Shown piece by piece: positions 2,907 through 37,485 of a DNA stretch of 40,512 nt (positions are counted from its first letter, which is position 1; each line of letters opens with the position of its first letter). The stretch lies in NCBI GenBank assembly GCA_014859305.1, contig JACUUM010000019.1, positions 1 to 40,512 on the forward strand, read 5' to 3'. The notes beneath the pieces were generated by a model. It was not told the origin of the DNA. It saw only the letters and a program-made list of their open reading frames with translations, and ran no database searches. Source of the DNA: Coriobacteriia bacterium. Lineage in GTDB: Bacteria; Actinomycetota; Coriobacteriia; Anaerosomatales; Kmv31. The position numbers were made by a program, and so were the translations under genes.

Positions 2907-2919
2907 TACAATGGGCGCA
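2907..2919 (+). promoter_or_regulatory. -10 element of a likely leaderless pdtaS transcript
   Basis: TACAAT at 2907-2912 lies so that transcription would start near 2919, the A of the ATG. There is no Shine-Dalgarno sequence before this ATG. No good -35 box is seen. Confidence 0.4.
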
Positions 2920-4391
2920 TGAGCACACGACCCCCTCTCACGCTGGACCTGCCGGCCGACACGCCCGCCGGGACGCGCGAGCACCTCGCCAACGTCGCGC
3001 GCAACCTGCAGCTGCTGGCCGACCTCGGTTACGGCACGGTCTCGCTCGCGCTGGCCGAGGATGAGGCCGGAGCACGGGGTGGAGGCGAAGGCGGCGTGGA
3101 GGCGGGCGGCGCGCTTCGCGTGCTGGCCGAGGCGCGCCCGATGACGGCCGTCCCGGCGGTGGCGACCAGCCGAGTGGGCCGCCGGCTGACGGCCGACGAC
3201 GAGCCGGAGGCGTTCGAGGCGCTGGCCGCGGCCGGGCCGGTGATCGGCGTCCGCCGCCGCACCACGCGCGGCATGAGGTACGCGACCGAGGCCTACCCCG
3301 TCGGCGACCCGCCCTACGCCGTCGTCCTGCGCGACCTCACCGAGCAGGTCGTCGAGGCGCCGGGCAAGATGGAGCGCGTGTTCATGGACGCGGCCGAGGT
3401 GCTCCTCGGCGTGCTGCGGGACGGGCCGCTGCGCGACCTCGCCAACGGCGAGCCGTTCATCACCCACCGGGTGGCGGGGGACGGCGTGCTCACGCTCGAC
3501 GAGCGGGGGCAGGTGCGCTACGCGAGCCCGAACGCGGTCAACATCATGCGCCTCGCGGGGGTGGACGGACCGGTGACGGGGCTGTCCGCCGAGGGGCTGC
3601 CGGGCGGCGCGCAGGCCGTCGCCCCCGTCCTCGGCTCCGGGGGCGCGCTCGCCACCGAGGTCGCAACGGCCGCCCGCGTGCTCAGTTACCGCACCCTGGC
3701 GCTGCCGCGTGGCGCGCTCGTGCTGGTCGAGGACGTCACGGAGGCCAAGCGGCGCGAGGCCGAGATCAAGGTCAAGGAGGCGACCATCCGCGAGGTGCAC
3801 CACCGCGTGAAGAACAACCTGCAGACGATCGCGTCGCTCCTGCGCATCCAGGCGCGCCGCTCCGGCAGCGACGAGGCGTCGCGGGCCTTGCGAGAGGCGG
3901 TCGAGCGCGTGAGCTCGATGGCGGTGGTGCACGAGATGCTCGCGGGGTCCACCGAGGAGCGCGTGGACTTCGCGGACGCGGCGCGCACCGTGGTCGACAT
4001 GGTCGGGCGAGGCCTCTCAGGCACGGCGGAGGACGTCCGCGTCGCCGTGGAGGGCTCCTCGGGCAAGGTGCCGGCGGCCGTGGCGACCTCGCTCGCGCTG
4101 GTCACGGCCGAGCTCGTGCACAACGCGATCGAGCACGGCCTGGCGGGCACGAGCGGCGAGGTGACGGTTTCGATGCGTCGCCTGCCCGCCGAGTTGCACC
4201 TCGTGGTGCGCGACACCGGCCGCGGCCTTCCCGAGGGCTTCGACATCGCCTCGGCGTCCAACCTCGGGCTGGCGATCGTGCGCACCGTGGTGGAGGACGA
4301 CCTGCGCGGCACGCTGTCCTTCGGTCGCGGCCGCGGCACGACCGTCACCATCCGCGTCCCCGTCGACGAGGGCGAGAGGGAGGGCGCGTGA
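2919..4391 (+). CDS. pdtaS: PdtaS-like cytosolic sensor histidine kinase (HisKA_2 family)
   Basis: 490 residues, close to the usual size of actinobacterial PdtaS (about 500). Residues 1-145 match the GAF-like N-terminal histidine-kinase domain, about 180-275 is a PAS domain (GVLTLDERGQVRYASPNAVN), and about 290-370 is the HisKA_2 dimerisation helix pair with EVHHRVKNNLQTI (phospho-acceptor at H294/H295). The C-terminus is an HATPase domain with ELVHNAIEHG (N box) and DTGRGLP (G1 box). There is no membrane segment, so sensing is cytosolic. The stop overlaps the start of the ANTAR regulator by four bases (GTGA), which fits translational coupling and the cognate PdtaS/PdtaR pairing. Known PdtaS proteins respond to copper, NO or cyclic-di-GMP in mycobacteria; the signal here is unknown. 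Confidence 0.88.
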   Translation: MSTRPPLTLDLPADTPAGTREHLANVARNLQLLADLGYGTVSLALAEDEAGARGGGEGGVEAGGALRVLAEARPMTAVPAVATSRVGRRLTADDEPEAFEALAAAGPVIGVRRRTTRGMRYATEAYPVGDPPYAVVLRDLTEQVVEAPGKMERVFMDAAEVLLGVLRDGPLRDLANGEPFITHRVAGDGVLTLDERGQVRYASPNAVNIMRLAGVDGPVTGLSAEGLPGGAQAVAPVLGSGGALATEVATAARVLSYRTLALPRGALVLVEDVTEAKRREAEIKVKEATIREVHHRVKNNLQTIASLLRIQARRSGSDEASRALREAVERVSSMAVVHEMLAGSTEERVDFADAARTVVDMVGRGLSGTAEDVRVAVEGSSGKVPAAVATSLALVTAELVHNAIEHGLAGTSGEVTVSMRRLPAELHLVVRDTGRGLPEGFDIASASNLGLAIVRTVVEDDLRGTLSFGRGRGTTVTIRVPVDEGEREGA

Positions 4392-4960
4392 GGATACTGA
4401 TCGCCGAGGACGAGGCGCTCATCCGCATGGACCTGCGCGAGATGCTAGAGGAGGAGGGCCACGAGGTGGTCGGCGAGGCGCGCGACGGCGCCGAGGCCGT
4501 CGCGCTGGCCTGCGATCTCGCCCCCGACGCCGTGTTCATGGACGTGAAGATGCCCGGCACCGACGGCCTCGACGCGGCCCGGGCGATCGGGGAGCGCTGT
4601 CCGGCAGCGGTGGTGATGGTCACAGCCTTCTCGCAGGCGGAGGTGGTGCGCTCGGCCGCGGAGGCCGGTGCCATGGCCTACGTCGTCAAGCCTTTCGAGA
4701 AGAAGGACGTCATCCCGGCGCTGCACGTCGCCGTCTCGCGCTTCGCCGAGGCACGCGAGCTCGAGGAGCAGGTCTCCGACCTGGCCGAGCGGCTCGAGAC
4801 GCGCAAGGCGCTCGACCGGGCCAAGGGCGTGCTGATGGAGCGCGGTCTGAGCGAGCCCGAGGCGTTCCGGCGCCTCCGGCGGCTGGCGATGGACAAGCGA
4901 CTCACGCTGCGGCAGGTCGCCGAGGCGGTCCTGCTCGCCTCGGAGGCCGAGGAGGGATAG
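4388..4960 (+). CDS. pdtaR: PdtaR-like response regulator with ANTAR RNA-binding domain
   Basis: 190 residues starting at GTG 4388. The receiver domain (1-120) has E7-D8, phospho-acceptor D52 in VFMDVKMPG, T in MVTAFS and K in VVKPFEKK. A helix linker leads to an ANTAR domain (about 125-185) with the signature ALDRAKGVLMERGLSEPEAF and a closing LRQVAEAVLLASE. ANTAR regulators bind paired hairpins in nascent mRNA and prevent termination, so the output is probably antitermination rather than promoter binding. It is coupled to the kinase gene by the GTGA overlap. No target hairpin pair was identified with confidence in this window. Confidence 0.9.
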   Translation: MRILIAEDEALIRMDLREMLEEEGHEVVGEARDGAEAVALACDLAPDAVFMDVKMPGTDGLDAARAIGERCPAAVVMVTAFSQAEVVRSAAEAGAMAYVVKPFEKKDVIPALHVAVSRFAEARELEEQVSDLAERLETRKALDRAKGVLMERGLSEPEAFRRLRRLAMDKRLTLRQVAEAVLLASEAEEG

Positions 4961-6249: not shown

Positions 6250-8955
6250 TCAGAAGTCGACCCCCACGCCGGGGTGGCACAGCAGGCAGATGTGGTCCAT
6301 GCCGAAGCCGCGCTCGAAGTACGGGACGCGGAGCATGTGGTTGTTGCGGCTGCCGTGGGGATTGTGGCAGGTCGAGCTGCAGGTGAGGGGCTTGTTGGAG
6401 TACTCGTCCCACGCTGAGGGGCGGGTGGGGTGGCTCACCAGACCGTCCACCGGCGCCTCGTAGGTGGCGCCGTTCCGGGGATGGCAGCGGATGCAGAGCT
6501 CGGGGTTGAAGTCGGTCAGCAGCGGCGACGCGTCCGAGCCGTGAGGCACGTGGCACCCCGCGCAGCGCTGGTCCCGGTGCGAGGACTCTCGGAACACCGT
6601 CGCATCCACCTCGTCGTGGCACCGGAGGCAGAAGTCGTCGCCCTCCCCCCGGACCAGCCGCTGGAACCGGCCGGCATGCGCCTGGTGACACCGTGTACAG
6701 GGGAAGCGGGCGCTCACCGGATGCCGGCTGGTCCGCTGGAACTCGGCGCGCACCCCGCCGTGGCACCGGTAGCACAGCGGCGGTTGGGCGGCGCGAAGCA
6801 GCGGCCCGGCGTCCGAGCCGTGCGGCGTGTGGCAGCGTGAGGCGCACGAGTCGTCGGCGAAGGGGGTGTGGCGCACGGGGAGCGTAAGCTCGCCGAGCGT
6901 GCCGGGGTGGCAGCGGAAGCACAGGCTGCGCTGCGCGACGGGCAGCAGCGCGGGCTCGGTCGCGGCATGAGCACGGTGGCAGTTCGCGCAGGTCATCCTG
7001 TTCCCGACGGGGTGCCTGCTCTGCAGCGCGAACTCCTCCGAGACGCCGGGGTGACAGCGGTAGCACAGCGGCGGCGGCGCGTCGGCCAGGAGCGGGACGG
7101 CGTCCGAGCCGTGCGGCACGTGGCAGGACCTCGCGCAGTCGTCGGTCACGAACGCCCGGTGCCGGACCGGCAGCCCCAGCTCCGCCAGGGTCGAGGGGTG
7201 GCAGCCGAAGCACAGGGCGCGGTGCGCCCTCGGGAGGAGGCCGCTGAAGCGGCTCGCGTGCGGGTCGTGGCAGTCGGCACAGCTGACCGCGACGCCGAGG
7301 GGGTGCCGGCTCGTCGAGGCGAACTCGAGCCGCACCCCGTCGTGGCACCGGTAGCAGAGAGCCGGGGCGCGCTCCGCGAGCAGCCGTCTCACCTCGGCCG
7401 CATGCGGGCGGTGGCACCGGGTGCATCGCACCGCGAAGGGTTCGTGCCGGACCGGGGCCGCGTCCTCGGCGGCGATGCCGGTGTGGCAGCGGAAGCACAG
7501 CGAGCGCTCCTCGGCGGTCAGCATGCCGGCGTGCACGGAGGCATGCGGCTCGTGGCAGCTGCGGGTGCACGGGTCGGAGCCGAAGGGGCGATGGCGCACC
7601 CGCAGGCCCGTCTCCGCTCGCGTCTCCCCGTGACAGCGGAAGCAGAACTCCGGTTGCGCCACGGGCAGCAGTCCGCTCGCCGGCGCGGCGTGGGCCCTGT
7701 GACAGTCGGGGCAGGAGATCCGCTCGCCGACCGGATGGCGTACCGGCAGCTCGAAGTCCTCGGAGACGCCGGGGTGACAGCGGTAGCACAGCGGGGGGGG
7801 CGCCTCGGCGAGCAGGGGCCCGGCGTCCGAGCCGTGCGGCACGTGGCAGGAGGTCGCGCAGTCGTCGGTCACGAACACGTCGTGCAGCACCGGCGATCCG
7901 AGCTCGGCGAACGTCGCCGGATGACAGCCGAAGCACAGCGAGCGGTGCTGGACCGGCAGCAGGCCGTCGAAGCCGCTCGCGTGGGGCTCGTGGCAATCCG
8001 GGCAGGTCACGCTCGTGCCCAACGGGTGCCGGCTCTCCGAGGCGAACTCCAGCCGCACCCCGTCGTGGCATCCGTAGCACAGCTGCGGGGTGCGATCCAC
8101 GAGCAGGGGACGGAAGTCGGCCGCGTGCGGGCGATGGCAACCGGCGCAGCCCGAGACGAAGGGGTCGTGCCGCACCGCCGAGCCGTCGAGGCGGGCCACC
8201 TCCTCGTGGCACCCCAGGCACAGCCGGCGCTGCTCGGTGGCGAGCATGCCGGCGAAGGCCGAGGCGTGGGGCTCGTGGCAGCGGGTGCAGGGGCCCTCCC
8301 CGAAGGGCTGGTGCACCTGCCGCGAGGCCAGGTCGGCCGCGACGTGATGGCACGACACGCACAGGGTGCGCTCGTCGGCCCTGAGCAGCACCCGGTTCGG
8401 GGAGGAGTGCGGGCGGTGGCACGAGGTGCAACCGCCCTCCTCGAACGGCGGGTGCTTGACGGACAGCGCGAGCCGAGGGGCCTGGTCGGGGTGGCACGAC
8501 CAGCACAGCAGTTCGGAGGAGACGCGGAGGCCACCCTCTCGGTAGGTCACTGTCGACGTCGACTCCGAGGGCGGCGGCGCGGCCTCGTCGGGGACCAGCG
8601 GCGGACCGGAGAGCACGTACCACACGATCTGCAGCCGCACGCGCTGCAGCCAGGACCGCAGACGCTCCCACGCGCCGAAGTCGCCGGGTGTCGAGCGCAG
8701 TACCCCCATGGCCGCGTGCGGGCGGTGGCACGAGCCGCAATGCTCCTCGGCGAAGGGCGCGTGCAGCACGTCGTCGGAGAAGTCGGCGAGAACCTCCGGG
8801 TGACAGCGCAGGCACTCGATGTTCCGGCGCAGGAAGGCGCTCTCCTGGGGGGACCGCACGATGAGGACGTAGAGCACGAGCACCGCGAGGACGACGAGGC
8901 CGACGAGGGCGCCTAGGGCCCTGCGACGCCGGCGTGCGCTGTCCTCCCCGTTCAC
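6250..8955 (-). CDS. Membrane-anchored 33-haem c-type cytochrome (doubled CXXCH family)
   Basis: 901 residues from GTG 8955, with GGGAGGGACGAGGGGGGG upstream. Residues 13-34 form one hydrophobic segment that anchors the protein, leaving the rest outside the membrane. I count 33 haem-attachment motifs: 28 CXXCH and 5 CXXXCH (CATSCH, CTRSCH, CARSCH, CASRCH, CSSTCH). Most occur in pairs about 25-35 residues apart with the second followed by PHG/PHA, as in the doubled-CXXCH (TIGR01905-like) architecture. Additional His residues (SRHP, VRHxxF) are plausible distal ligands, so most haems are probably bis-His. Hemes 9-18 and 19-28 are a long tandem duplication. The natural role is long-range electron transfer at the cell surface or to a soluble partner; partners, and the ccs maturation genes it needs, are not in the window. 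Confidence 0.93.
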   Translation of the reverse strand: MNGEDSARRRRRALGALVGLVVLAVLVLYVLIVRSPQESAFLRRNIECLRCHPEVLADFSDDVLHAPFAEEHCGSCHRPHAAMGVLRSTPGDFGAWERLRSWLQRVRLQIVWYVLSGPPLVPDEAAPPPSESTSTVTYREGGLRVSSELLCWSCHPDQAPRLALSVKHPPFEEGGCTSCHRPHSSPNRVLLRADERTLCVSCHHVAADLASRQVHQPFGEGPCTRCHEPHASAFAGMLATEQRRLCLGCHEEVARLDGSAVRHDPFVSGCAGCHRPHAADFRPLLVDRTPQLCYGCHDGVRLEFASESRHPLGTSVTCPDCHEPHASGFDGLLPVQHRSLCFGCHPATFAELGSPVLHDVFVTDDCATSCHVPHGSDAGPLLAEAPPPLCYRCHPGVSEDFELPVRHPVGERISCPDCHRAHAAPASGLLPVAQPEFCFRCHGETRAETGLRVRHRPFGSDPCTRSCHEPHASVHAGMLTAEERSLCFRCHTGIAAEDAAPVRHEPFAVRCTRCHRPHAAEVRRLLAERAPALCYRCHDGVRLEFASTSRHPLGVAVSCADCHDPHASRFSGLLPRAHRALCFGCHPSTLAELGLPVRHRAFVTDDCARSCHVPHGSDAVPLLADAPPPLCYRCHPGVSEEFALQSRHPVGNRMTCANCHRAHAATEPALLPVAQRSLCFRCHPGTLGELTLPVRHTPFADDSCASRCHTPHGSDAGPLLRAAQPPLCYRCHGGVRAEFQRTSRHPVSARFPCTRCHQAHAGRFQRLVRGEGDDFCLRCHDEVDATVFRESSHRDQRCAGCHVPHGSDASPLLTDFNPELCIRCHPRNGATYEAPVDGLVSHPTRPSAWDEYSNKPLTCSSTCHNPHGSRNNHMLRVPYFERGFGMDHICLLCHPGVGVDF
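6631..8079 (-). repeat. Tandem duplication of a ten-haem block (two copies of about 723 bp)
   Basis: Inside the cytochrome, 7357-8079 (hemes 9-18) and 6631-7356 (hemes 19-28) align motif for motif. The Cys codon of heme 9 (8079) and heme 19 (7356) are exactly 723 bp or 241 codons apart, as are the shared stretches at 7824 and 7101 coding for PHGSDA. The order CYGCHDGVRLEFAS, HPLG, PHAS, CFGCHP, FVTDDCA, PHGSDA, CYRCHPGVSE recurs in both. A weaker part copy recurs 97 codons further on at about 6810. Confidence 0.85.
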
Positions 8956-9048: not shown

Positions 9049-9894
9049 TCACCGAAGGGCGCCGATGTAGCCCGGGTCGGGCTTCTCGCTCTGGGTGAGC
9101 ACGTGCCCGATGCGCTGCTCGGGCGTGCGCGCGAAGACCTGGCGGACGCGCCGCTCGTCGGCCGTGTGGCGCACCTCCACCTCCACGCTGTCCTCGCGGA
9201 TGCGGATGAGGTTGTAGGACGGCTGGGTCACGCCGCGCGTGCGCCAGGAGGTGGCCGTGCCGCTGGTGACGGCCAGCATCCCCGCAATCGGCCACACGTG
9301 CGGCACGTGCTTGTGCCCCGCGAGCACGAGGTCCACCCCCGCCTCCATCAGGATCTCCAGGATGTCGCCCGCGTCCCACGCGATGTTGCGCTCGCGCCCC
9401 GTCCCGGGCACGGGCACGAGGTGATGGTGTACGACGAAGACCTTGTACGCGTCGTCGCCCGCGAACTGCTCCCGGAGCCATCCGTAACGGTCTCGGCCGA
9501 TCTCGCCTTCGTTCAGGTCCGGCTTGCTCGAGTCCGCGCAGACCACGCGCATGCGCGTCGGGCCGGGGTCACCGCCGGCCGGGAAGGGGAAGTCGCGGGA
9601 GTAGAACTTCTGGCCGAAGATGCGGTCGAAGAACACGTAGCCGACGTTGCGGCTGTCGTGGTTGCCGGGGATGACCACCTTCTCGGTGCATTCGACGCGG
9701 TCGATGTAGCTCTTGGCGAGCTCGAACTGGTCGGGGTAGCCCTTCTCGGTGAGGTCGCCGGGGCAGGCGACCAGGTCGGGGCAGTCGCGGTTCAGGTCGT
9801 GGATGAGCCGCTCCATGAGGCCCGCGTCGAACCGGCCGTCCCCGCAGTGGATGTCCGAGAACTGCCCGATGGTGCACACGCCGTCGGTCGTCAC
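9049..9894 (-). CDS. Calcineurin-like metallophosphoesterase (CpdA-like)
   Basis: 281 residues from GTG 9894, chosen because GGAGG ends eight bases upstream and the first catalytic motif comes only about 12 residues later; the longer open frame up to 10332 has no support. All five motifs of the family are present: SDIHCGDGRF (Asp and His), ACPGDLTEKG, IPGNHDSRN, VVHHHLVPVP and LAGHKHVPH. These bind a two-metal centre and hydrolyse phosphodiesters or phosphomonoesters. The closest general type is the class III cyclic-nucleotide phosphodiesterase CpdA group, but the substrate cannot be told from sequence. No signal peptide, so cytosolic. Divergent from the hdrBC-glt operon. Confidence 0.85.
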   Translation of the reverse strand: MTTDGVCTIGQFSDIHCGDGRFDAGLMERLIHDLNRDCPDLVACPGDLTEKGYPDQFELAKSYIDRVECTEKVVIPGNHDSRNVGYVFFDRIFGQKFYSRDFPFPAGGDPGPTRMRVVCADSSKPDLNEGEIGRDRYGWLREQFAGDDAYKVFVVHHHLVPVPGTGRERNIAWDAGDILEILMEAGVDLVLAGHKHVPHVWPIAGMLAVTSGTATSWRTRGVTQPSYNLIRIREDSVEVEVRHTADERRVRQVFARTPEQRIGHVLTQSEKPDPGYIGALR

Positions 9895-9989
9895 GGCCGT
9901 CACCTCCGAGGGTCGCCGCCGACCCCGCCTAGGTTCCCTGTAAGGGCGTTCCTCCAACACCCGGCGGAACGACGACCGCCTCGCCGCGC

Positions 9990-10005
9990 GTTTCGGGCGT
10001 GTCTC
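9990..10005. promoter_or_regulatory. Candidate GlnR-like site upstream of the hdrBC-glt operon
   Basis: Read on the minus strand this is GAGAC-N6-GAAAC. It lies about 43 bases upstream of a possible -10 box (TAAACT, 10048-10053) and resembles the GAAAC-N6-GAAAC pair in front of glnA. Actinobacterial GlnR boxes use GTnAC-N6-GAAAC half-sites, so this is a partial match only. Confidence 0.3.
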
Positions 10006-10047
10006 CCGCGCGTGAACCCGCCCCTTCCCGGGTACGTTCTCCCGTGC

Positions 10048-10053
10048 TAAACT
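10048..10053 (+). promoter_or_regulatory. Possible -10 box of the hdrBC-glt operon
   Basis: TAAACT, with TTCCCG 17 bases upstream as a weak -35. It would give a leader of about 120 bases containing the hairpin at 10064-10083. Confidence 0.3.
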
Positions 10054-10063
10054 CGGTATCCGA

Positions 10064-10083
10064 GCGGCACGCCGTCGTGCCGC
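10064..10083. promoter_or_regulatory. Perfect inverted repeat in the hdrBC-glt leader
   Basis: GCGGCACG-CCGT-CGTGCCGC, an 8-bp stem with a four-base loop, between the possible promoter and the hdrBC start. It could be an operator or an mRNA hairpin. No run of T follows, so it is not a standard terminator. Confidence 0.4.
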
Positions 10084-10183
10084 GACACACGTGAGCAACG
10101 GCGCTCGCATCCGGACCCGACAGGGGCCGGCGGCGGGCGTTTCCGTTCGGTCGCCCGCCGGACGCACCGATCCCGGAGGCGAC

Positions 10184-11518
10184 ATGAACGATCTCGCGGT
10201 CTTCTGGGGCTGCACCATACCGGCGCGCTTCCCCTTCATCGAGAAGTCGACGCGGCTCGTCCTCGGCGACATGGGCGTACGCGTGCGCGAGCTCGAGGGC
10301 CATACCTGCTGCCCCGAGGGCGTGCTGGTCAAGCCGAGCAGCGAGCGCGCGTTCTACACGGCCGCGGCCCGGAACCTCGCGATCGTCGAGAAGGCGGGCC
10401 TGGACGTGGTGACGCCGTGCAACGGGTGCTACTCCACCTTCAAGGAGGTCTCCAGCCACCTCATCACCCACTGGCGCGAGCGTGACGCGATCAACGACCG
10501 CTTGTCGGCGGAGGACCTTCGCTACGACGGGCGCCTGAAGGTGACCCACTTCGCCGAGTGGCTGACCGACGGGATCGGGACCGGCGTGGTCGCCTCGAGG
10601 ATCACCCGCCCGCTGTGGGGCCTGCGCATCGCGGTACACCACGGCTGCCACCTGCTGCGCCCCCAGCCCGCCGTGCGCTGGGACGACCCGCTGCACCCCC
10701 GGAAGGTCGAGGAGCTCGTCACCGCGCTGGGCGCCCGGGTGGTGGACTACCCGACCAGGATGCAGTGCTGCGGCGGCGCGCTGGACCGCATGGGCGAGCG
10801 GGAGAGCTCGCTGGCTTTCGCCCGCCGCAAGCTCACCGACGTCCAGCGCGAGGAGGCCGACGCGCTGGTGGTCGTCTGCCCGAGCTGCTTCCAGCAGTTC
10901 GACCTGAACCAGGCGGCCCTGCAGCGCGCCAAGGAGGACGTGAACGTCCCGGTCCTCTACCTCTCCGAGCTCGTCGCGCTCTCGATGGGGCACGAGCCCG
11001 AGGAGCTGGGGCTGGACATGCATCGCGTGTCGGTTGAGCCCTTCCTCGAGAAGTGGGGTGACCGCCAGGCCGACAGGGTGCGCCTCGAGGCCTTCTTCGA
11101 CGTGTCGCTGCTCGGCAGGTGCTACGCCTGCCAGGCGTGCAAGGACGACTGCCCGGTCTGCAAGGTCGACCCCTCCTTCCAGCCTACCGAGATCGTCGGA
11201 GACCTCGTGCGGGGTCACCTCGACGACGTGATCGCCGGCGGCGGGCTCTGGAAGTGCCTCGAGTGCTACACGTGCCAGGAGCTGTGCCACTCCAGGATCG
11301 GCATGGCCGGGACGTTCCGCAAGCTCAAGGAGCTCGCGATGAGCGCGGGCAGCGGACCCGACCCGGTCTCGGCGGCCTACAGGCAGTTCCTCGAGGCCGG
11401 CGTGCTGGGCAAGCCCAAGGAGTCCGCCCGAAGGAAGCTCGGGCTCGACCCGCTCCCGCCGACCGGCGGCGACGCGGTGGCCCGCCTGCTGTCGAACGAG
11501 CCGGAGGAAGAGCGATGA
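10184..11518 (+). CDS. HdrB-HdrC fusion protein (heterodisulfide reductase-like, two CCG domains plus two [4Fe-4S])
   Basis: 444 residues from ATG 10184 with GGAGG six bases before it. Residues 1-270 are HdrB-like, with two complete CCG cluster motifs: C10-X31-C42C43-X35-C79xxC82 and C155-X39-C195C196-X35-C232xxC235, each suited to a non-cubane [4Fe-4S] cluster. Residues about 305-375 are HdrC-like, with two ferredoxin motifs: C313xxC316xxC319xxxC323 and C358xxC361xxC364xxxC368. No flavin HdrA domain is attached or nearby. The stop overlaps the ATG of gltB1 by four bases (ATGA). Because of this coupling I infer that it passes electrons to, or from, the glutamate synthase in place of GltD. It is not likely to reduce CoM-S-S-CoB here; the natural thiol or electron partner is unknown. 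Confidence 0.85.
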   Translation: MNDLAVFWGCTIPARFPFIEKSTRLVLGDMGVRVRELEGHTCCPEGVLVKPSSERAFYTAAARNLAIVEKAGLDVVTPCNGCYSTFKEVSSHLITHWRERDAINDRLSAEDLRYDGRLKVTHFAEWLTDGIGTGVVASRITRPLWGLRIAVHHGCHLLRPQPAVRWDDPLHPRKVEELVTALGARVVDYPTRMQCCGGALDRMGERESSLAFARRKLTDVQREEADALVVVCPSCFQQFDLNQAALQRAKEDVNVPVLYLSELVALSMGHEPEELGLDMHRVSVEPFLEKWGDRQADRVRLEAFFDVSLLGRCYACQACKDDCPVCKVDPSFQPTEIVGDLVRGHLDDVIAGGGLWKCLECYTCQELCHSRIGMAGTFRKLKELAMSAGSGPDPVSAAYRQFLEAGVLGKPKESARRKLGLDPLPPTGGDAVARLLSNEPEEER

Positions 11519-12744
11519 GCGAGACGACCGGGCCGTTGCTGAACGAGGAGGGCCGGCCGCGCTACCGCGAGGAGGCGTCCTTCAAGATCCATGGCGGTTG
11601 CGGGCTGATGGGCATCTGCGACACCTCGGGTGAGCTGATGGGCGGTGAGGTCGCACTGCGCTCCATCGCGGTGCAGCACGACCGGGGCAACGGCCTGGGC
11701 GGCGGGTTCGCCGGTTACGGCATCTACCCCGAGTTCCCCGAGCACTTCTGCTTCCACATGATGTACCACGACGTCCGGGGCAAGGAGGACGCCGAGGCCG
11801 CCTTCGACCGGTACTTCCTCGTCGACCTCGCCGAACCGATGCCCACGCGCGCGACGAAGGGCGTCACGGACGCGCCGCTGCTGTGGCGCTACTTCCTGAC
11901 CCCCGACCCGCACAAGCTCGAGGCCTCCGAGATGAGCCCGGAGGACTTCGTCGTGCACACCGTCATGCTCATCAACTCGTCGGTGGACGGGGCGTTCGTA
12001 GCCTCCTCGGGCAAGAACATGGGCGCGTTCAAGGGCGTGGGCTTCCCCGAGGAGATCGGGCACTTCTTCCGTCTCGACGAGTACGCCGGCCACACCTGGG
12101 TCGGCCACAACCGGTTCCCGACGAACACGCCGGGCTGGTGGGGCGGCGCGCACCCCTTCACGCTGCTGGACTGGTCGATCGTCCACAACGGGGAGATCTC
12201 CAGCTACGGCATCAACAGCCGCTACCTCGAGCAGTTCGGCTACAAGTGCACGCTCGGCACCGACACCGAGGTCGCGGCGTACCTCTTCGACCTCATGCTG
12301 CGCCGCCACAAGCTGCCGCTCGGCCTGGCCTGCAAGGCGCTGGCCAGCCCGTTGTGGAGCGAGATCGACAGGATGCCGGCCGAGGAACGCGAGGTCATGC
12401 GCTCGCTGCGCGCAGTGTACGGCTCGGGCATGCTGAACGGACCCTTCGCGATCGTGCTGGGCTTCAACGGCGGCATGGTCGCCCTCAACGACCGCATCAA
12501 GCTCCGTCCGCTCGTCGCGGCCAAGGCCGGCCCCGTGGTGATGGTGGCCTCCGAGGAGAGCGCGATCCGCGCCGTGCTGGACGGTCCCGACGAGGTCTGG
12601 GCGCCGAAGGCCGGCGAGCCGGTCGTCGCCCGCGTAGCGGGGATGGACTGGCCGATCCACGGCGACCTGCACCTCTCCGCCGACGAGATCTCCTGCGCCG
12701 TGACCGGCATGGAGGGATCGTGCGAGACCGTGGAGGTGGTCTAG
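11515..12744 (+). CDS. Glutamate synthase, amidotransferase subunit (archaeal-type split GltB, domain 1)
   Basis: 409 residues from ATG 11515. This is the class II glutamine amidotransferase part of glutamate synthase, which releases ammonia from glutamine for the synthase subunit. The nucleophile is expected at C29 in HGGCGLMGICD, so a 28-residue leader must be removed to expose it, as in other GltB proteins. Further supporting motifs are GHNRFPTNTPGWWGGAHPF, DWSIVHNGEISSYG and LGTDTEVAAYLFD. It overlaps hdrBC by ATGA and abuts gltB2 without a gap, so all subunits should be made in equal amounts. Confidence 0.9.
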   Translation: MSETTGPLLNEEGRPRYREEASFKIHGGCGLMGICDTSGELMGGEVALRSIAVQHDRGNGLGGGFAGYGIYPEFPEHFCFHMMYHDVRGKEDAEAAFDRYFLVDLAEPMPTRATKGVTDAPLLWRYFLTPDPHKLEASEMSPEDFVVHTVMLINSSVDGAFVASSGKNMGAFKGVGFPEEIGHFFRLDEYAGHTWVGHNRFPTNTPGWWGGAHPFTLLDWSIVHNGEISSYGINSRYLEQFGYKCTLGTDTEVAAYLFDLMLRRHKLPLGLACKALASPLWSEIDRMPAEEREVMRSLRAVYGSGMLNGPFAIVLGFNGGMVALNDRIKLRPLVAAKAGPVVMVASEESAIRAVLDGPDEVWAPKAGEPVVARVAGMDWPIHGDLHLSADEISCAVTGMEGSCETVEVV

Positions 12745-14256
12745 GTGCCGAGCACCTTCATCCAGCCGGAGTTCAAGGTCAAGATCGACTACGACAAGTG
12801 CCACAAGTGCGGGCGCTGCGTGCAGCAGTGCGGCTGGGGCGTCTACTCGTTCAACGAGCGCCCGATCCCCGACGACTCCAAGTGCCGGGCGTGCCACCGC
12901 TGCGTGACGTACTGCCCGGCGCACTGCATCACCGTCGCCAAGAGCGAGCTGGCCTTCCGTGACAGCGACAACTGGTCGCCGGCTCTTCGGAAGTCCGTGT
13001 GGCGCCAGGCCGAGACGGGCGGCGTCCTGCTGACCGGCATGGGCAACGACAAGCCCTACACGAAGATCTTCGACCACCTCGTGCTGGACGCGTGCCAGGT
13101 GACGAACCCGTCCATCGACCCGCTCCGCGAACCCATGGAGCTGAGGACGTACCTCGGCCGCAAGCCGGACTCCGTGCGGGTCGAGACCGACGGCGAGGGC
13201 GGGCTCAAGCTCGCCGAGGGCGGCGGGATGTGCAACAACATCGAGCTCGCCGTCCCGATCGTCTTCTCGCCGATGAGCTACGGTTCGGTCTCGCTCAACG
13301 TGCACAAGTCGCTGGCGATGGCGGCTGGCAGACTCGGCATCCTGATGAACACCGGCGAGGGCGGGCTGCACGCCGACCTGTATCCGTACGCGGAGAACGT
13401 CATCGTGCAGGTGGCGTCGGGGCGGTTCGGCGTCGACCCCGAGTACCTGGATCGCGGGGCGGCCATGGAGATCAAGATCGGCCAGGGCGCCAAGCCCGGC
13501 ATCGGCGGGCACCTGCCCGGCGAGAAGATCGACAGGGAGGTCTCCTCCACGCGCATGATCCCGCAGGGCTCCGACGCGATCTCGCCCGCGCCGCACCACG
13601 ACATCTACTCCATCGAGGACCTTCGGCAGCTCATCTACGCCCTCAAGGAGGCGACCGGATACAAGCCCGTGGGCGTGAAGATCGCGGCCGTGCACAACGT
13701 GGCGGCCATCGCCAGCGGCATCGTGCACGCCGGCGCCGACTACGTCTACCTCGACGGTTTCCGTGGCGGCACCGGCGCGGCGCCGGCCGTCATCCGGGAC
13801 CACATCGGCATCCCCGTCGAGGTCGCCGTCGCGGTCGTCGACCAGCGCCTGCGCGACGAGGGGATCCGCAATCACGCCTCGATCGTGGCGGCCGGCTCCA
13901 TCCGGTCCTCGGCGGACATGGCCAAGGCGATCGCGCTGGGCGCGGATGTCGTGGCGATCGGCAGCGCCACGCTGATGGCGCTGGGCTGCCACCTGTGCCA
14001 GGGGTGCCACACCGGGTCGTGCTCCTGGGGCCTGACCACGCAGAAGCCCGAGCTGACGCGCCGCCTGGACCCCGAGTGGGGCGCGGAGCGGCTGACGAAC
14101 CTCGTGAACGCCTGGAGCCACGAGCTGCAGGAGATCCTCGGCGCGCTGGGCGTGAACGCCGTGGAGTCGCTCCGCGGGAGCCGCGAGCGGCTGCGCTCCA
14201 TCGGGCTCGACGAGCAGATGAACAAGGTCCTCGGCGTCAGACCGGTCGGGATGTGA
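12745..14256 (+). CDS. Glutamate synthase, FMN synthase subunit with N-terminal ferredoxin domain (archaeal-type GltB, domain 2)
   Basis: 503 residues from GTG 12745, immediately after the gltB1 stop. Residues 15-62 hold two [4Fe-4S] motifs (C19xxC22xxC25xxxC29 and C47xxC50xxC53xxxC57). The rest is the FMN-binding alpha/beta barrel that makes glutamate from 2-oxoglutarate and ammonia, with SPMSYGSVSLNVHKSLA, NTGEGGLHADLYPY, DYVYLDGFRGGTGAAP and VAAGSIRSSADMAKA. The three cysteines of the [3Fe-4S] cluster are kept as C-X5-C-X4-C in LGCHLCQGCHTGSC. The added ferredoxin domain means electrons arrive from an iron-sulfur donor, which fits the HdrBC partner upstream. Confidence 0.93.
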   Translation: MPSTFIQPEFKVKIDYDKCHKCGRCVQQCGWGVYSFNERPIPDDSKCRACHRCVTYCPAHCITVAKSELAFRDSDNWSPALRKSVWRQAETGGVLLTGMGNDKPYTKIFDHLVLDACQVTNPSIDPLREPMELRTYLGRKPDSVRVETDGEGGLKLAEGGGMCNNIELAVPIVFSPMSYGSVSLNVHKSLAMAAGRLGILMNTGEGGLHADLYPYAENVIVQVASGRFGVDPEYLDRGAAMEIKIGQGAKPGIGGHLPGEKIDREVSSTRMIPQGSDAISPAPHHDIYSIEDLRQLIYALKEATGYKPVGVKIAAVHNVAAIASGIVHAGADYVYLDGFRGGTGAAPAVIRDHIGIPVEVAVAVVDQRLRDEGIRNHASIVAAGSIRSSADMAKAIALGADVVAIGSATLMALGCHLCQGCHTGSCSWGLTTQKPELTRRLDPEWGAERLTNLVNAWSHELQEILGALGVNAVESLRGSRERLRSIGLDEQMNKVLGVRPVGM

Positions 14257-14268
14257 GGAGGACGCGAG

Positions 14269-15087
14269 ATGCCTGAGTCAGCGGTGAGCGCCGGTCTCTT
14301 CCAGGGTTACCGGGAGGTCGTCCCGAGCGTGAGGGTCGAGGGCGGGCGCGCGGCGATCGACGCGTCGGGCGTGTACTACAAGCAGCTCAACGAGGCGGTG
14401 CGCGCCGCAGTCGCCGAGGGCGCCGGACACGTCGTCGTCGAGAACGTCAACGGCCAGCGCTACATCGGCGCGGGCATCGGCGCCAAGGGCGTGCGGATCG
14501 AGGTGCGCGGCACGGCGGGGAACGACACGGCGATGTTCATGAACGGGCCGACGGTGGAGGTCTTCGGGAACGCTCAGGACGGTATCGGCAACACCATGAA
14601 CGCGGGCACCGTGATCGTGCACGGCGACGCGGGCGACGTGCTGGGCTACGGCATGCGCGGAGGTTCGGTGTTCGTCGGCGGCGACGTGGGCTACCGGGTC
14701 GGCATCCATATGAAGGCGTATGAGGGCCTGAGGCCGGTCGTGGTCTGCGGTGGCAAGGCGCGCGACTTCTTCGGCGAGTACATGGCCGGCGGCATGCTGG
14801 TGCTGCTGGGGATGCGCTCGCGGTTCGCGGGCCCCCCGGTCGGCTGCTACGTCGGGACCGGCATGCACGGCGGCGTGATCTACCTGCGAGGCGAGGTCGA
14901 GGCGTGGCAGTGCGGCAAGGAGGTCGGCGTGTTCGCCGCCGACGACGGGGACATGTCCGAACTCGGGCCGGTGCTCGAGGAGTACTGCGCGGCGCTGGGC
15001 GAGGACGTCGCCGAGGTGCTGGACGCGCCGTTCACCAAGCTGGTCCCCGTGAGCCACCGGCCCTACGGCAAGCTGTACGCGTACTGA
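14269..15087 (+). CDS. Glutamate synthase, GXGXG-domain subunit (split GltB, domain 3)
   Basis: 272 residues from ATG 14269, with GAGGA upstream and a 12-base gap to gltB2. It is the right-handed beta-helix of GltB, built from GXGXG repeats: IGAGIGAKG, GNAQDGIGNTMNAG, GDVLGYGMRGG and VGTGMHGGVIY. In fused GltB this domain is structural and holds the amidotransferase and synthase domains together. In archaeal and some anaerobic bacterial genomes it is a separate protein, as here. It ends the operon: the next gene is on the other strand. Confidence 0.9.
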   Translation: MPESAVSAGLFQGYREVVPSVRVEGGRAAIDASGVYYKQLNEAVRAAVAEGAGHVVVENVNGQRYIGAGIGAKGVRIEVRGTAGNDTAMFMNGPTVEVFGNAQDGIGNTMNAGTVIVHGDAGDVLGYGMRGGSVFVGGDVGYRVGIHMKAYEGLRPVVVCGGKARDFFGEYMAGGMLVLLGMRSRFAGPPVGCYVGTGMHGGVIYLRGEVEAWQCGKEVGVFAADDGDMSELGPVLEEYCAALGEDVAEVLDAPFTKLVPVSHRPYGKLYAY

Positions 15088-15111
15088 GGACGGGCCGCCG
15101 TGACGAGCCCG

Positions 15112-15573
15112 TCAGCGCGCCTCGACGAGGGCCGCCTCCTCCAGCGCCTCGGCCACGCGGCCGTACTTCTCGTGGATGTGCCGAGGGTAGAACTGCGCCA
15201 GCGCCCGCAGCCCGCGGGCGATGTCGCCGAGCACCCCGGTGTCGCCGTCGGCGTAGCGCTCGCCCGCCTCGTGCAGCCGCGTGGTCGCGCCACGCGCCCA
15301 TTCGTGCTCCCGTACGAGCCGGTCCATCGCCTTGGCGTGATCCGGCTCGAGCGCCCTGCCCGAGAGGCTCTCGAACAGGATGTCCTCCTCCTTGCCGTGG
15401 TGGCAGGCGTCGGCGTAGGTACGCATGAAGTCGGCCACGGTCGACACGTAGGCGGGCGAGAGCTCGCGCGCCGTCCGGATCCTCTCCTCGGTGCGGCTCA
15501 TGTCGCGCACCACGCGCTCGATCAGCCGGTGCTCCATCATCAGCATCCCCGCCGGGTCCCTCGTCGCTCGCAT
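15112..15573 (-). CDS. Hemerythrin HHE-domain protein
   Basis: 153 residues from ATG 15573, with GGAGGT four bases upstream; the longer frame to 15774 runs into glnA and was rejected. It is a four-helix bundle with candidate di-iron ligands H15 (MMEHRLIE), H58/H59 and E62 (DACHHGKEED), H90 (REHEWARG) and H132/H134 with E135 (YPRHIHEKYG). Such proteins bind O2 or NO or help protect iron-sulfur enzymes. Its place between the oxygen-sensitive glutamate synthase cluster and glnA, on the other strand, is suggestive of protection, but nothing proves it. Confidence 0.85.
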   Translation of the reverse strand: MRATRDPAGMLMMEHRLIERVVRDMSRTEERIRTARELSPAYVSTVADFMRTYADACHHGKEEDILFESLSGRALEPDHAKAMDRLVREHEWARGATTRLHEAGERYADGDTGVLGDIARGLRALAQFYPRHIHEKYGRVAEALEEAALVEAR

Positions 15574-15648
15574 GCAGACCTCCGACCAGCCGACGGCCGT
15601 CGGGCCGTACGTACCCGGAAAGGGAGGCGAATCGGGCTCCGACGATGC

Positions 15649-15680
15649 GAAACGCAGGCGAAACAATCGGCCGGTATCCT
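15649..15680 (+). promoter_or_regulatory. glnA upstream region: GAAAC-N6-GAAAC direct repeat and possible -10
   Basis: GAAAC occurs at 15649-15653 and 15660-15664 with exactly six bases between, the half-site spacing of actinobacterial GlnR boxes. TATCCT at 15675-15680 is a possible -10. The regulator is probably the GlnR-like protein just downstream of glnA. Confidence 0.4.
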
Positions 15681-15754
15681 CACCTCGAGAGTCTTCGCCC
15701 GCAGGTACGACCAGGCCCCGTGGAGGGCCGTGGCGCAGCTGAAGGAGGATCGTG

Positions 15755-17092
15755 ATGACGCCCAAGTTCGACAAGGACTACGTGCTCAAGACGGTGGAGG
15801 AGCGCGGGGTCCGCTTCATCCGCTTCTGGTTCACCGACGTGCTCGGCTTCCTGAAGAGCTTCGCGGTGACCGACACCGAGCTCGAAGGCGCGTTCGAGGA
15901 GGGCATGGGCTTCGACGGCTCGTCGATCGACGGCCTCACGCGCATCCAGGAATCCGACATGGTCGCCTTCCCGAACCCCGAGACCTTCCAGGTCCTGCCG
16001 TGGAGGCCCACGGAGGACGGCGTGGCCCGCATGTTCTGCGACATCACGAATCCCGACGGCGCACCGTTCGAGGGGGACCCGCGCTACGCGCTGAAGCGCG
16101 TGCTGGCCAAGGCCGGCGACATGGGCTACACGATGTACGTCGGCCCCGAGCTGGAGTTCTTCTACTTCGCGGACTCGTGCGGCACCGACGTGCTCGACCA
16201 GGGCGGCTACTTCGACCTCACGCCGCTCGACGTCGCGAGCGACCTTCGGCGCGAAACGGTGCTCACGCTCGAGAAGCTCGGCATCCCGGTGGAGTACAGC
16301 CACCACGAGGTCGCGCCCAGCCAGCACGAGATCGACCTGCGCTACGCCGATGCGCTCAGCATGGCCGACAACGTGATGACGTACCGCCTGACCGTCAAGG
16401 AGATCGCCATGGCCAACGGCGTGTACGCCACGTTCATGCCCAAGCCCATCCAGGGCCGGAACGGCTCGGGGATGCACACGCACCAGTCGCTCTTCAGCGA
16501 GGCCGGCAACGCGTTCTTCGACCCGGACGATCCCGAGGGCTACAACCTCTCGACCGTCGGCAAGCACTACATCGCCGGTCTTCTCGAGTACGCCCCGGAG
16601 TTCTGCGCGGTGACCAACCAGTTCGTGAACTCGTACAAGCGCCTGGTGCCCGGCTACGAGGCCCCCACCTACGTCACCTGGGCGCGCCGCAACCGCTCGG
16701 CGATGGTGCGCGTCCCGATGTACAAGCCCGGCAAGGAGGCCGCGACCCGCGTCGAGTTGCGCTCACCCGACCCCTCGGCCAACCCGTACCTCGCCTTCGC
16801 CGCGATGCTCGGAGCCGGGCTCAAGGGCATCGAAGAGGGCTTGGAGCTCATGCCCGAGGCCACGAACAACGTCTTCAGGATGACCGAGGACGAGCTGGAC
16901 GCCGCCGGCATCAAGACGCTGCCGAAGAACCTCGGCGAGGCCATCGAGCTGTTCGAGCACAGCGAGCTGATGAAGGAGGTCCTGGGCGAGCACATCCACG
17001 AGTTCTTCGTGCGCAACAAGAAGGCCGAGTGGGCCGAGTACGTGTCCTACGTCTCGCCTTGGGAGCAGGACAAGTACCTCTCCGTCCTGTAG
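15755..17092 (+). CDS. glnA: Type I glutamine synthetase (GSI-alpha size)
   Basis: 445 residues. ATG 15755 is preferred over the GTG just before it because AGGAGG ends six bases upstream. Makes glutamine from glutamate, ammonia and ATP, feeding the glutamate synthase next to it. Key motifs: GMGFDGSSIDG near the N-terminus, the metal and substrate region GPELEFFYF, EVAPSQHEIDLRY, NGSGMHTHQSLF and ARRNRSAMVRVP. The length and the C-terminus match GSI-alpha enzymes, which lack the 25-residue insert and NLYDLP adenylylation site of GSI-beta. So feedback or protein-protein control is more likely than GlnE adenylylation. A strong hairpin follows the stop. Confidence 0.95.
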   Translation: MTPKFDKDYVLKTVEERGVRFIRFWFTDVLGFLKSFAVTDTELEGAFEEGMGFDGSSIDGLTRIQESDMVAFPNPETFQVLPWRPTEDGVARMFCDITNPDGAPFEGDPRYALKRVLAKAGDMGYTMYVGPELEFFYFADSCGTDVLDQGGYFDLTPLDVASDLRRETVLTLEKLGIPVEYSHHEVAPSQHEIDLRYADALSMADNVMTYRLTVKEIAMANGVYATFMPKPIQGRNGSGMHTHQSLFSEAGNAFFDPDDPEGYNLSTVGKHYIAGLLEYAPEFCAVTNQFVNSYKRLVPGYEAPTYVTWARRNRSAMVRVPMYKPGKEAATRVELRSPDPSANPYLAFAAMLGAGLKGIEEGLELMPEATNNVFRMTEDELDAAGIKTLPKNLGEAIELFEHSELMKEVLGEHIHEFFVRNKKAEWAEYVSYVSPWEQDKYLSVL

Positions 17093-34441: not shown

Positions 34442-35335
34442 CTACGCGCCCTCGCGGGCCGTCTTCCGCTCCTCGGGGGCGAGCACGTCGTTCATGCTGC
34501 CGCTGCGGTAGCCCTCCAGGTCCAGGGCGACGTACGGGAAGCCGCCGGCCCTCACCGCCTCGAGGACCTGCGCGCGGGACTCCCAGGCGCGCTGCATCTC
34601 GTCGGCGCCCACCTCGACGCGCGCCACCTCGCCGTGCGCGCGCACGCGGGACTGCCGCAGCCCCAGCGCCCGCAGCCCGTCCTCGGCCAGCATCACCCGC
34701 TCCAGGTCCTCGGAGGTGATCTCGCAGCCGTAGGGGAAGCGCGAGGCGAGGCACGCCATGGAGGGCTTGTCCCAGTTCGGCAAGTCGAGCATGCGTGCCA
34801 CGTCGCGGACGTGGGCCTTGGTCATGCCGACGTCGCGCAAGGGCGTGAGGATGTCCAGCTCGGCCGCCGCCCGTGCCCCCGGGCGGTGGTCGGCGTCGTC
34901 GTCGGCGTTGCTGCCGTCGGCCACGTGCTCCAGCCCGCGGACCTCCGCAACGGTCTTGAGCAGGCCGAAGAGCTCGCTCTTACAGTGGTAGCAGCGGTCC
35001 GGTCCGTTCGCGCGGAAGCGGGGGTCGGCCAACTCGTTGGTCTCGACCTCCATCACGCGCAGGCCCAGCGCGGCGGCGGTGGAGCGCGCGGAATCGGCCT
35101 CGCTCGGGGGGTAGGTGTCGGAGAGCGCGAGCACGGCGAGGCAGGATGAGCCCATCACGGCGTGCGCCGCGACCGCCAGCAGAGTGGAGTCGACGCCCCC
35201 CGAGTACGCCACCAGCACGCTGCGAAGCGACGAGAGGCGCTCGAGCAGCAGTTCGTAGCGGTCGCCCGGCGTCCGGGCCGCGCTCGACCCGGACGAGTCA
35301 CCGGTGTTCCCGCTCGGCAAGAAGGCCCCCCTCAC
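34442..35335 (-). CDS. larE: ATP-dependent sacrificial sulfur transferase LarE
   Basis: 297 residues from GTG 35335. An alternative is TTG 35320, which has AGGGGGG five bases upstream and fits better with a transcript starting near 35347. The PP-loop is [14 protein letters not shown], followed by [39 protein letters not shown] and [19 protein letters not shown], which match LarE closely. The enzyme adenylates the pyridinium dicarboxylate and gives sulfur from its own Cys, probably that in [11 protein letters not shown], for the nickel-pincer cofactor. LarB and LarC, and any Lar racemase, are not in this window. Confidence 0.88.
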
Positions 35336-35353
35336 GCGGTCAGCGAGTCTCGG

Positions 35354-35362
35354 ATTATATCA
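35354..35362 (-). promoter_or_regulatory. Extended -10 promoter of larE
   Basis: Read on the minus strand: TGATATAAT, a consensus TATAAT with the TGn extension. Start of transcription expected near 35347. No -35 box, as is usual for extended -10 promoters. Confidence 0.6.
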
Positions 35363-35388
35363 GTCATGTCCCCGAGTCGCGGGCTCGC

Positions 35389-35394
35389 TACACT
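35389..35394 (+). promoter_or_regulatory. Possible -10 box of acs
   Basis: TACACT in the divergent region between larE and acs; implies a leader of about 85 bases. The -35 is weak. Confidence 0.3.
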
Positions 35395-35484
35395 GTCGGA
35401 AGGAGTCCGTCGGCGCCTCCTGGGGGGCCGGAGGGGAAGGATACCAGGGGACGCCGTTCCCGAGCTGAAGGGGAGGTGGCCGGG

Positions 35485-37485
35485 GTGGTCCGAGAGCGCA
35501 CGGAGGCGGGCATAGAGCGGCTCGCGGCGGAGGGGCGCGCGTACGAACCGCCCGAGGAGCTGGCCGCGAGCGCGGTCGTGGGCGGGATGGAAGCCTACAC
35601 CGACATGTACCGCCGCTCGGTGGAGGATCCCGAGGGGTTCTGGCGGGACGTCGCCCTGGCCGAGGTGGAGTGGACGGAGCCGTTCCGCACCGCTGCGGCG
35701 GGCGGCTTCGAGGAGCTCGACTACGCGTTCTTCGCCGGCGGGAAGCTCAACGTCTCGGCGAACTGCGTCGACCGGCACCTGCACACGTGGCGGCGCAACA
35801 AGGCCGCGATCATCTGGGAGGGCGACGACGGCTCGTCGCGCACCTACACCTACCAGCAGCTGCACAACGAGGTCTCGCGCTTCGCCAACGTGCTGCGCAA
35901 GAAGGGCGTCGGGCGCGGCGACCGCGTGGCGGTCTACCTGCCGATGATCCCGGAGCTTCCCGTGGCGATGCTCGCGTGCGCGCGGATCGGCGCGATCCAC
36001 TCGGTGGTCTTCGGCGGGTTCTCCTCGGCCGCGCTCAAGGAGCGCATCCAGGACTGCCAGGCCAAGCTGCTCATCACCGCGGACGAGGGCATGCGTGGCG
36101 GCCGTCGCGTCGCGTTGAAGGTCTCCGCCGACGAGGCCATGTTCGAGTGCCCGTCTGTCGAGGCGTGCGTGGTGGTCAAGCGAGGGGCGGGCGAGGTGGA
36201 CATGGAGCCCGGCCGGGACACCTGGTGGCACCAGGAGGTGACGGCGCCTGAGGTGCGCAAGCCGAGCGAACCTGAGGTCATGGACGCCGAGGACCCTCTG
36301 TTCATCCTGTACACGAGCGGGTCCACCGGCAAGCCCAAGGGCGTGCTGCACACCACCGGCGGCTATCTCGTCTTCGCCGTGCACAGCTTCGAGACCGTCT
36401 TCGACCACCGCGACGAGGACGTCTACTGGTGCACGGCCGACATAGGCTGGGTCACGGGGCACAGCTACATCGTCTACGGCCCGCTGGCCGCCGGCGCGAC
36501 CGTGCTGATGTTCGAGGGCGTGCCCACCTATCCCGACCCCGGGCGCTTCTGGCAGGTCGTCGAGAAGTATGGTGTCACGCTGTTCTACACCGCGCCCACC
36601 GCGCTGAGAGCGCTGATGCGGCACGGCGACGGGTGGCCCGAGCGCTACGACCTGAGCAGCCTGCGGGTGCTCGGGACGGTGGGCGAGCCGATCAACCCCG
36701 AGGTCTGGGAGTGGTACCGGCGCACGATCGGGCGGGACGAGCTGCCCGTGATCGATACGTACTGGCAGACCGAGACCGGCGGGGTCGTCATCACGCCGTT
36801 CCCCGGGGCCACCCCTCTCAAGCCCGGTTCGGCGACGGTGCCGTACTTCGGCGTGGTGCCCAAGGTGCTGCGTGAGGACGGCGGCGAGGCCGCGCCCGAC
36901 GAGGGCGGCTACCTCGTCATCGACCGCCCGTGGCCGGGTATGCTGCGCGGGACCTGGGGCGACCCGGAGAAGAAGCGGCTGCGCGAGGTGTACTTCGAGC
37001 GCTTCCCGGGGCGCTACTTCACCGGCGACGGCGCGCGCGTCGACGCGGACGGCTACTTCTGGCTGCTCGGCAGGGTTGACGACGTGATAAACGTCTCCGG
37101 GCACCGCATCGGGACGGCCGAGGTCGAGAGCGCGCTGGTGAGCCACGAGGCGGTCAGCGAGGCCGCGGTCGTGGGCTTCCCGCACCCGGTCAAGGGCGAG
37201 GCCATCCACGCGTACGTCGTCCTGCGCGACGGCGTCGTGCCCTCCGAGGACCTCGCGAAGATCCTGACCGGGCACGTGCGCAAGGCCATCGGCCCGATCG
37301 TCAAGCCGGACCGCGTCCAGTTCGTGTCCGACCTCCCCAAGACGCGTTCGGGCAAGATCCTGCGCCGGATCCTGCGCAAGACCGCCGCGGGCGAGCGCGA
37401 GCTCGACGCGTTCGGCGACCTGTCGACGCTGGCGGACCCGAAGGTCGTGAAGGAGCTGCTGGCCGGCGCCGAGACGTACTGGTAG
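35485..37485 (+). CDS. acs: Acetyl-CoA synthetase (AMP-forming)
   Basis: 666 residues from GTG 35485, with GGGGAGG eight bases upstream; the longer frame runs through the promoter region. Activates acetate to acetyl-CoA via acetyl-AMP. Motifs: [18 protein letters not shown] in the N-terminal cap, [20 protein letters not shown] (P-loop), the acetate-site [43 protein letters not shown] (hinge) and [15 protein letters not shown] with the catalytic and acetylatable Lys. The size and all conserved blocks match Acs rather than a long-chain or propionyl enzyme. It heads a run with two small genes. Confidence 0.94.

Follow-up and report, generated by a model that had tools for sequence, protein, structure and literature searches.

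A 33-haem membrane-anchored cytochrome of the Anaerosomatales, probably a lengthened relative of the order's 15-haem MtrA/DmsE-like protein

Results

The window, i.e., the whole stretch of DNA analysed (40,512 nucleotides of contig JACUUM010000019.1, assembly GCA_014859305.1), comes from a Coriobacteriia bacterium of the order Anaerosomatales with a genome (G000) of 2.13 Mb that is 98% complete. Its main feature (Table 1) is a long gene read from 8955 to 6250, with a GC content by codon position of 72/55/93; the plus strand of this segment is interrupted by stops. The product carries 28 CXXCH and 5 CXXXCH motifs (66 Cys and 72 His in 901 aa), as an earlier sequence-only reading had counted, and shuffled copies of the protein contain a mean of 0.77 and a maximum of 8 motifs. 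Chance motifs or a wrong strand are thus ruled out by the shuffling, the plus-strand stops and the GC pattern. A single hydrophobic segment, accompanied by nothing but haem-repeat matches, agrees with the same reading's claim of one N-terminal anchor and no other domain, and the positive-inside rule predicts an N-in/C-out topology. The repeats comprise 15 stretches of PF09699 with overlapping cytochrome c3/NrfB-like matches. By score, the protein belongs to the doubled-CXXCH family PF09699 (462 bits over the 15 stretches vs. a cut-off of 20.6) as well as to TIGR01905 (471 bits vs. 25.2).

Table 1. Coordinates of the 33-haem cytochrome gene and its parts within the window
Feature	Position	Strand	Remarks
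33-haem membrane-anchored MtrA/DmsE-like cytochrome gene	6250..8955	minus	901 aa, GTG start
N-terminal transmembrane anchor (predicted)	8854..8922	minus	residues ~12-34, after RRRRR; from sequence and helix 4-33 in AlphaFold model
Haems 1-8	8080..8814	minus	residues 48-292; N-terminal part common with the order's 15-haem proteins, long linker between haems 2 and 3
Linker helix between haems 2 and 3	8608..8676	minus	residues 94-116; similar segment in the order's 15-haem proteins
Haems 6-15, first copy of 10-haem duplication	7570..8289	minus	residues 223-462; unit identities 42-88% at offset 10
Haems 16-25, second copy of 10-haem duplication	6847..7569	minus	residues 463-703
Haems 27-33	6253..6774	minus	residues 728-901; C-terminal part common with 15-haem proteins, ends in CLLCHPGVGVDF

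The haem sites are laid out with considerable regularity. A 78-residue step, whose helix possibly lies on the membrane, separates haems 2 and 3; the spacing from haem 3 to haem 31 is 22–25 residues, and the predicted density from haem 3 on is one haem per 24.6 residues. The 33 sites alternate strictly between two types: odd haems are followed by a spare His 17 residues past the first Cys (this distance being 16 at haem 5 and 21 at haem 31), and even haems by xPH or xAH at +7, or at +8 where the motif is CXXXCH. An obvious candidate distal His is thereby available for 32 of the 33 haems, which have the appearance of electron-transfer haems. No His follows the motif of haem 33 within its own segment, and this haem would need a ligand from elsewhere in the protein. 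The CXXXCH motifs are those of haems 12, 16, 22, 26 and 32, all even-numbered. That they all precede PHG or PHA and recur regularly, as had been remarked from the sequence, is correct but not special to them, since xPH/xAH trails every even haem, including those with CXXCH. Their 4-6-4-6 spacing follows from the 10-haem duplication, which pairs haems 12/22 and 16/26, and the CXXXCH of haem 32 corresponds to the sole CXXXCH of the 15-haem relatives described below.

A motif search of ORFs found no other multihaem gene in the 40-kb window. The cytochrome gene is separated by 93 bp from a metallophosphoesterase gene upstream of it (9049-10332) and is convergent with a BtrH/DarH-like gene. It might form an operon with the phosphoesterase gene, although nothing ties the phosphoesterase to cytochromes, and that gene is absent next to the related 19-haem gene of another genome of the order (G101); the closest ORFs upstream of that 19-haem gene match DUF763 and DUF420. 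A scan for sigma-70-like promoters, of little value at 72% G+C, gave no match at the gene. Elsewhere in the window, an HdrB/HdrC-like fusion stands beside three genes that together encode a glutamate synthase, a gene with a hemerythrin domain and a glutamine synthetase (10091-17092), and a PdtaS-type histidine kinase is paired with an ANTAR response regulator (2919-4960). A predicted tRNA-Ala (ggc; 35610-35703) falls inside an acetyl-CoA synthetase-like ORF (35146-37485) near its N-terminal end, so that either the true start of the latter gene lies farther downstream or the tRNA is a false prediction.

The genome contains cytochrome c maturation genes (ResB at C35:15968 and, close by, CcsA at C35:17590), and the absence that would have spoken against a functional haem protein is therefore not observed. 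There is no sign of an outer membrane, and neither the MtrB/PioB barrel (PF11854) nor Omp85 (PF01103) was found in this 98% complete genome; an MtrAB conduit in the strict sense is accordingly lacking. Two cultured Anaerosomatales have a Gram-positive wall and 17–18 multihaem cytochromes, including MtrA homologues, and one of them reduces iron (PMC9686372). Placement in this order (OPB41) agrees with sequence comparisons: DNA polymerase I of the genome shows 63–66% identity to its counterpart in three MAGs, two labelled Coriobacteriia and the third HGW-Actinobacteria-6, and over the region used for the tree, the two Coriobacteriia MAGs have 15-haem proteins identical to those of genomes assigned to the same order.

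The same contig C35 encodes a 15-haem relative (C35:23796-25244; 482 aa, 14 CXXCH and 1 CXXXCH) that is 34–36% identical to the 33-haem protein and resembles it in its anchor, haem 2-3 linker, haem spacing, C-terminal haems with CXXXCH and VG-hydrophobic end. Its haem 15 (CLSCHKTVGIEF) is as His-poor as haem 33. The 15-haem gene sits downstream of ResB/CcsA between a 1703-aa giant with 43 motifs (37 CXXCH and 6 CXXXXCH) and a 12-haem protein whose N-terminal region is of the NapC/NirT type (PF03264), an assignment made by Pfam for this genome only. The cluster (C35:15000-28945, L168) also holds TPR and NHL proteins; a 1848-aa Big_5 protein with 16 motifs is encoded upstream of it. A second group of cytochromes in this genome (20, 12 and 7 haems, with a cytochrome b561-type membrane protein; C18, L172:2980-7699) may represent a second quinol-to-outside route. 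These cytochromes were collected by searches, so that the set given for the genome is a minimum.

A search with the 33-haem protein finds matches at E <= 1e-20 in 48 of the order's 69 genomes. Exactly 15 haems are present in all 32 copies examined from the order (28 plus those of G000, G101, G016 and G034) and in all eight examined from elsewhere in the phylum; the latter (L158-L165) have near-identical spacing, with the long haem 2-3 linker missing in L162-L165. Among 22 loci with flanking sequence, 21 have another multihaem gene within a few kb of the 15-haem gene, the exception ending at a contig edge, whereas the 33-haem gene stands alone in its window. In 11 of these 22 loci the adjacent gene encodes an 11–12-haem protein (neighbours being judged by haem count). 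From genome to genome of the order, the giant cytochrome next to this gene differs in motif number (37, 43, 50 or 58 motifs; L167:3-6179, L179:210-5777, L173:2262-6218, L192:75-5474), and the 15-haem neighbour is constant.

Residues 1-346 and 724-901 of the 33-haem protein match both ends of the 15-haem proteins, and the middle accounts for 18 more haems. Haems 6-15 and 16-25 form a duplication with 63–68% amino-acid and 72–74% nucleotide identity in overlapping blocks, a dN of 0.25–0.30, a dS of 0.66–0.70 and hence a dN/dS of ~0.4 between the repeats. These values show the duplication to be old and subject to purifying selection, and they make an artefact from assembling repeats unlikely (the copies differ by 24–37% at the DNA level). 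The 18 extra haems derive partly from this old 10-haem duplication. An expanded form is found in only two of the 69 genomes, the one analysed here and G101, which keeps a separate 15-haem copy beside its 19-haem gene. In a tree built on the first eight haems, the 33- and 19-haem proteins group together (support 97/98) on two long branches, which makes their sister relationship likely rather than settled. The haem numbers 15, 19 and 33 are all odd, as expected if haems were added in pairs. The 33-haem protein is best explained as an ancient sister of the order's 15-haem anchored cytochrome.

The best sequence match in the PDB is MtrA (6r2q chain A, E 2.5e-21; the sequence file names this chain 'Cystathionine beta-synthase', apparently a labelling error, the fold library giving it as Mtr complex). 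In the phmmer alignment haems 7-13 coincide with haems of MtrA in both motif and distal His, so that the predicted ligand layout is that of MtrA. AlphaFold models were made without haem: the full-length one is good only to about residue 400 (mean pLDDT 57 beyond), and a second one, for residues 487-901, is of moderate confidence. MtrA is the only Foldseek match in the PDB for both modelled parts (E 6.5e-6 and 6.6e-5; TM normalised to MtrA 0.50–0.53 for models partly of low confidence). On TIGR03508 (the MtrA/DmsE decahaem family) the protein scores 373 bits against a cut-off of 192, a sum over six repeated stretches, its 33 haems being at variance with the ten of that family; its 15-haem paralog stays below the cut-off at 171. 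What the protein has in common with MtrA of Shewanella MtrCAB and with DmsE is thus the pairing of CXXCH motifs and the agreement in position of both motifs and distal His. The difference lies in the 10 haems of MtrA and the MtrB barrel that encloses it (PMC7198977), as against 33 membrane-anchored haems in a genome lacking MtrB and Omp85.

OmcS, OmcE and OmcZ, toward which the sequence-only reading had looked for comparison, turn out not to be the relevant relatives, MtrA/DmsE being best by both sequence and fold: none of the three gave a Foldseek match for either modelled part, and OmcS appears in the profile search at 1e-6 only, without a stretch of its own. An OmcS-type relation is not supported by this faint profile match and the missing fold match. 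A search of the viral fold library gave no match, and a plasmid search one distant match from Photobacterium.

Several relatives outside the order have long haem arrays. Two with 42 haems, one in the Anaeromyxobacter MAG L037 and the other in the Deltaproteobacterium MAG L041, are 29–30% identical over most of their length and likewise have long paired arrays, but belong to different phyla and alternate less strictly between odd and even sites. A related 1466-aa protein of a Desulfuromonadales MAG (L052:3599-7999) has 73 CXXCH, i.e., ~20 residues per haem. The expectation that 33 would be among the larger actinobacterial haem counts is fair, but the count is exceeded by the 37 CXXCH and 6 CXXXXCH of the giant in the same genome and by 58 motifs within the order. 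A record is ruled out by the former and by the 42–73 haems of relatives elsewhere.

Discussion

Taken together, our analysis favours a probable role of the 33-haem protein as an anchored MtrA/DmsE-like electron wire, lengthened in two-haem steps, that carries electrons outward through a monoderm wall. One N-terminal helix would hold the protein to the outer face of the cytoplasmic membrane, and 18 haems would have been inserted, in two-haem units, into the middle of a 15-haem-like array. A quinol dehydrogenase, for example the 12-haem NapC/NirT-type protein of C35, may feed electrons in at haems 1-2 close to the membrane, and the C-terminal haem, which would lie at the outer wall edge or close to it, may pass them on to a surface cytochrome or acceptor; these candidate partners (the NapC/NirT-type protein for entry, giant cytochromes for exit) are suggested because they neighbour the 15-haem gene. 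We infer that all 33 haems are bis-His-ligated and form one extended chain, by extrapolation from the models past residue ~400. The 78-residue step after haem 2, the orphan position of the gene (in contrast to the 15-haem gene) and the restriction of expanded forms to two of 69 genomes count against this reading. An earlier proposal of a haem chain running through a Gram-positive wall is in line with the anchor, the extracytoplasmic location, the ccs genes and the lack of any sign of an outer membrane, whereas its wall-spanning and conducting parts keep a presumptive character.

The ten haems of MtrA span 80 Å at 8.9 Å per step (PMC7198977). At this pitch, the 32 steps between 33 haems would amount to ~284 Å (~28 nm) and the 14 steps between 15 haems to ~124 Å. 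With Gram-positive peptidoglycan thickness quoted as 20–80 nm (PMC7911101), a candidate range for this organism, the 33-haem form could in principle suffice on its own to bridge a thin monoderm wall, and the 15-haem form probably could not. The stronger proposition, that one membrane-tethered polypeptide crosses the whole peptidoglycan wall without porin or polymer and that the length series 15/19/33 tracks the bridged distance, is tentative, and we consider it possible yet doubtful.

Other explanations of such a long array have been weighed against the wire. The 33 haems might instead serve as an electron buffer at the membrane at times when an acceptor is lacking, with length reflecting capacity and not distance. 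The dense array would suit this function, and charge storage has been suggested for such arrays in the available sections of PMC7399161. We nevertheless regard it as unlikely, given that MtrA, the nearest homologue of solved structure, forms a linear wire and that both ends are common with a 15-haem protein adjoining an 11–12-haem protein in about half of its loci; storage and conduction are in any case compatible. Direct reduction of an extracellular acceptor by the protein, through an open haem site, is less likely still: the missing His after haem 33 could mark an exposed exit site, but all other haems have regular candidate distal His, a catalytic domain is absent, and the last haem of the 15-haem protein is equally His-poor, with several spare His preceding it, one of which could serve as ligand.

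The orphan position of the gene, its occurrence in two of 69 genomes, its long tree branch and, for what the scan is worth at such a G+C content, the missing promoter match could also indicate a redundant, little-used duplicate of the 15-haem protein with no role of its own. This is similarly improbable in view of an intact ORF that has kept all motifs and 32 distal His and of the dN/dS between its repeats. Finally, the OmcS-like CwcA of Thermincola has been proposed, as the 33-haem protein is here, to carry electrons across a Gram-positive wall (PMC7911101), and the latter might by analogy be a subunit of an OmcS-type polymeric nanowire. In addition to the faint profile match and the missing fold match, an anchor on each copy would hinder polymerisation, making this account very improbable. 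CwcA has six haems per subunit in a proposed stacked polymer, whereas the array considered here is one polypeptide.

The anchored-wire interpretation extends a pattern known from other phyla. The available sections of PMC7399161 describe Burkholderiales cytochromes with 24 and 49 haems, along with others from Anaerolineales, that are likewise dense arrays with haem numbers varying between close relatives, those of Burkholderiales lying beside an outer-membrane porin; haems were apparently gained or lost in pairs, and a molecular-wire role was suggested. These sections also report 37 multihaem genes in a Coriobacteriales genome, and the lengthened form is not among the cases described there. 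Thus, while long paired arrays and haem-number variation were already known, what is new relative to that part of the literature is a fixed-length 15-haem protein with a sister lengthened to 33 haems, a clean case in a monoderm actinobacterial order.

Overall, if the wall-crossing proposition is true, a single chain would be long enough for the wall, unlike in the stacked-polymer model of Thermincola. The order offers 15-, 19- and 33-haem versions with matching ends, in which length may be compared with wall thickness and conductance with haem number, and the 33-haem protein may provide a natural template for long protein wires.
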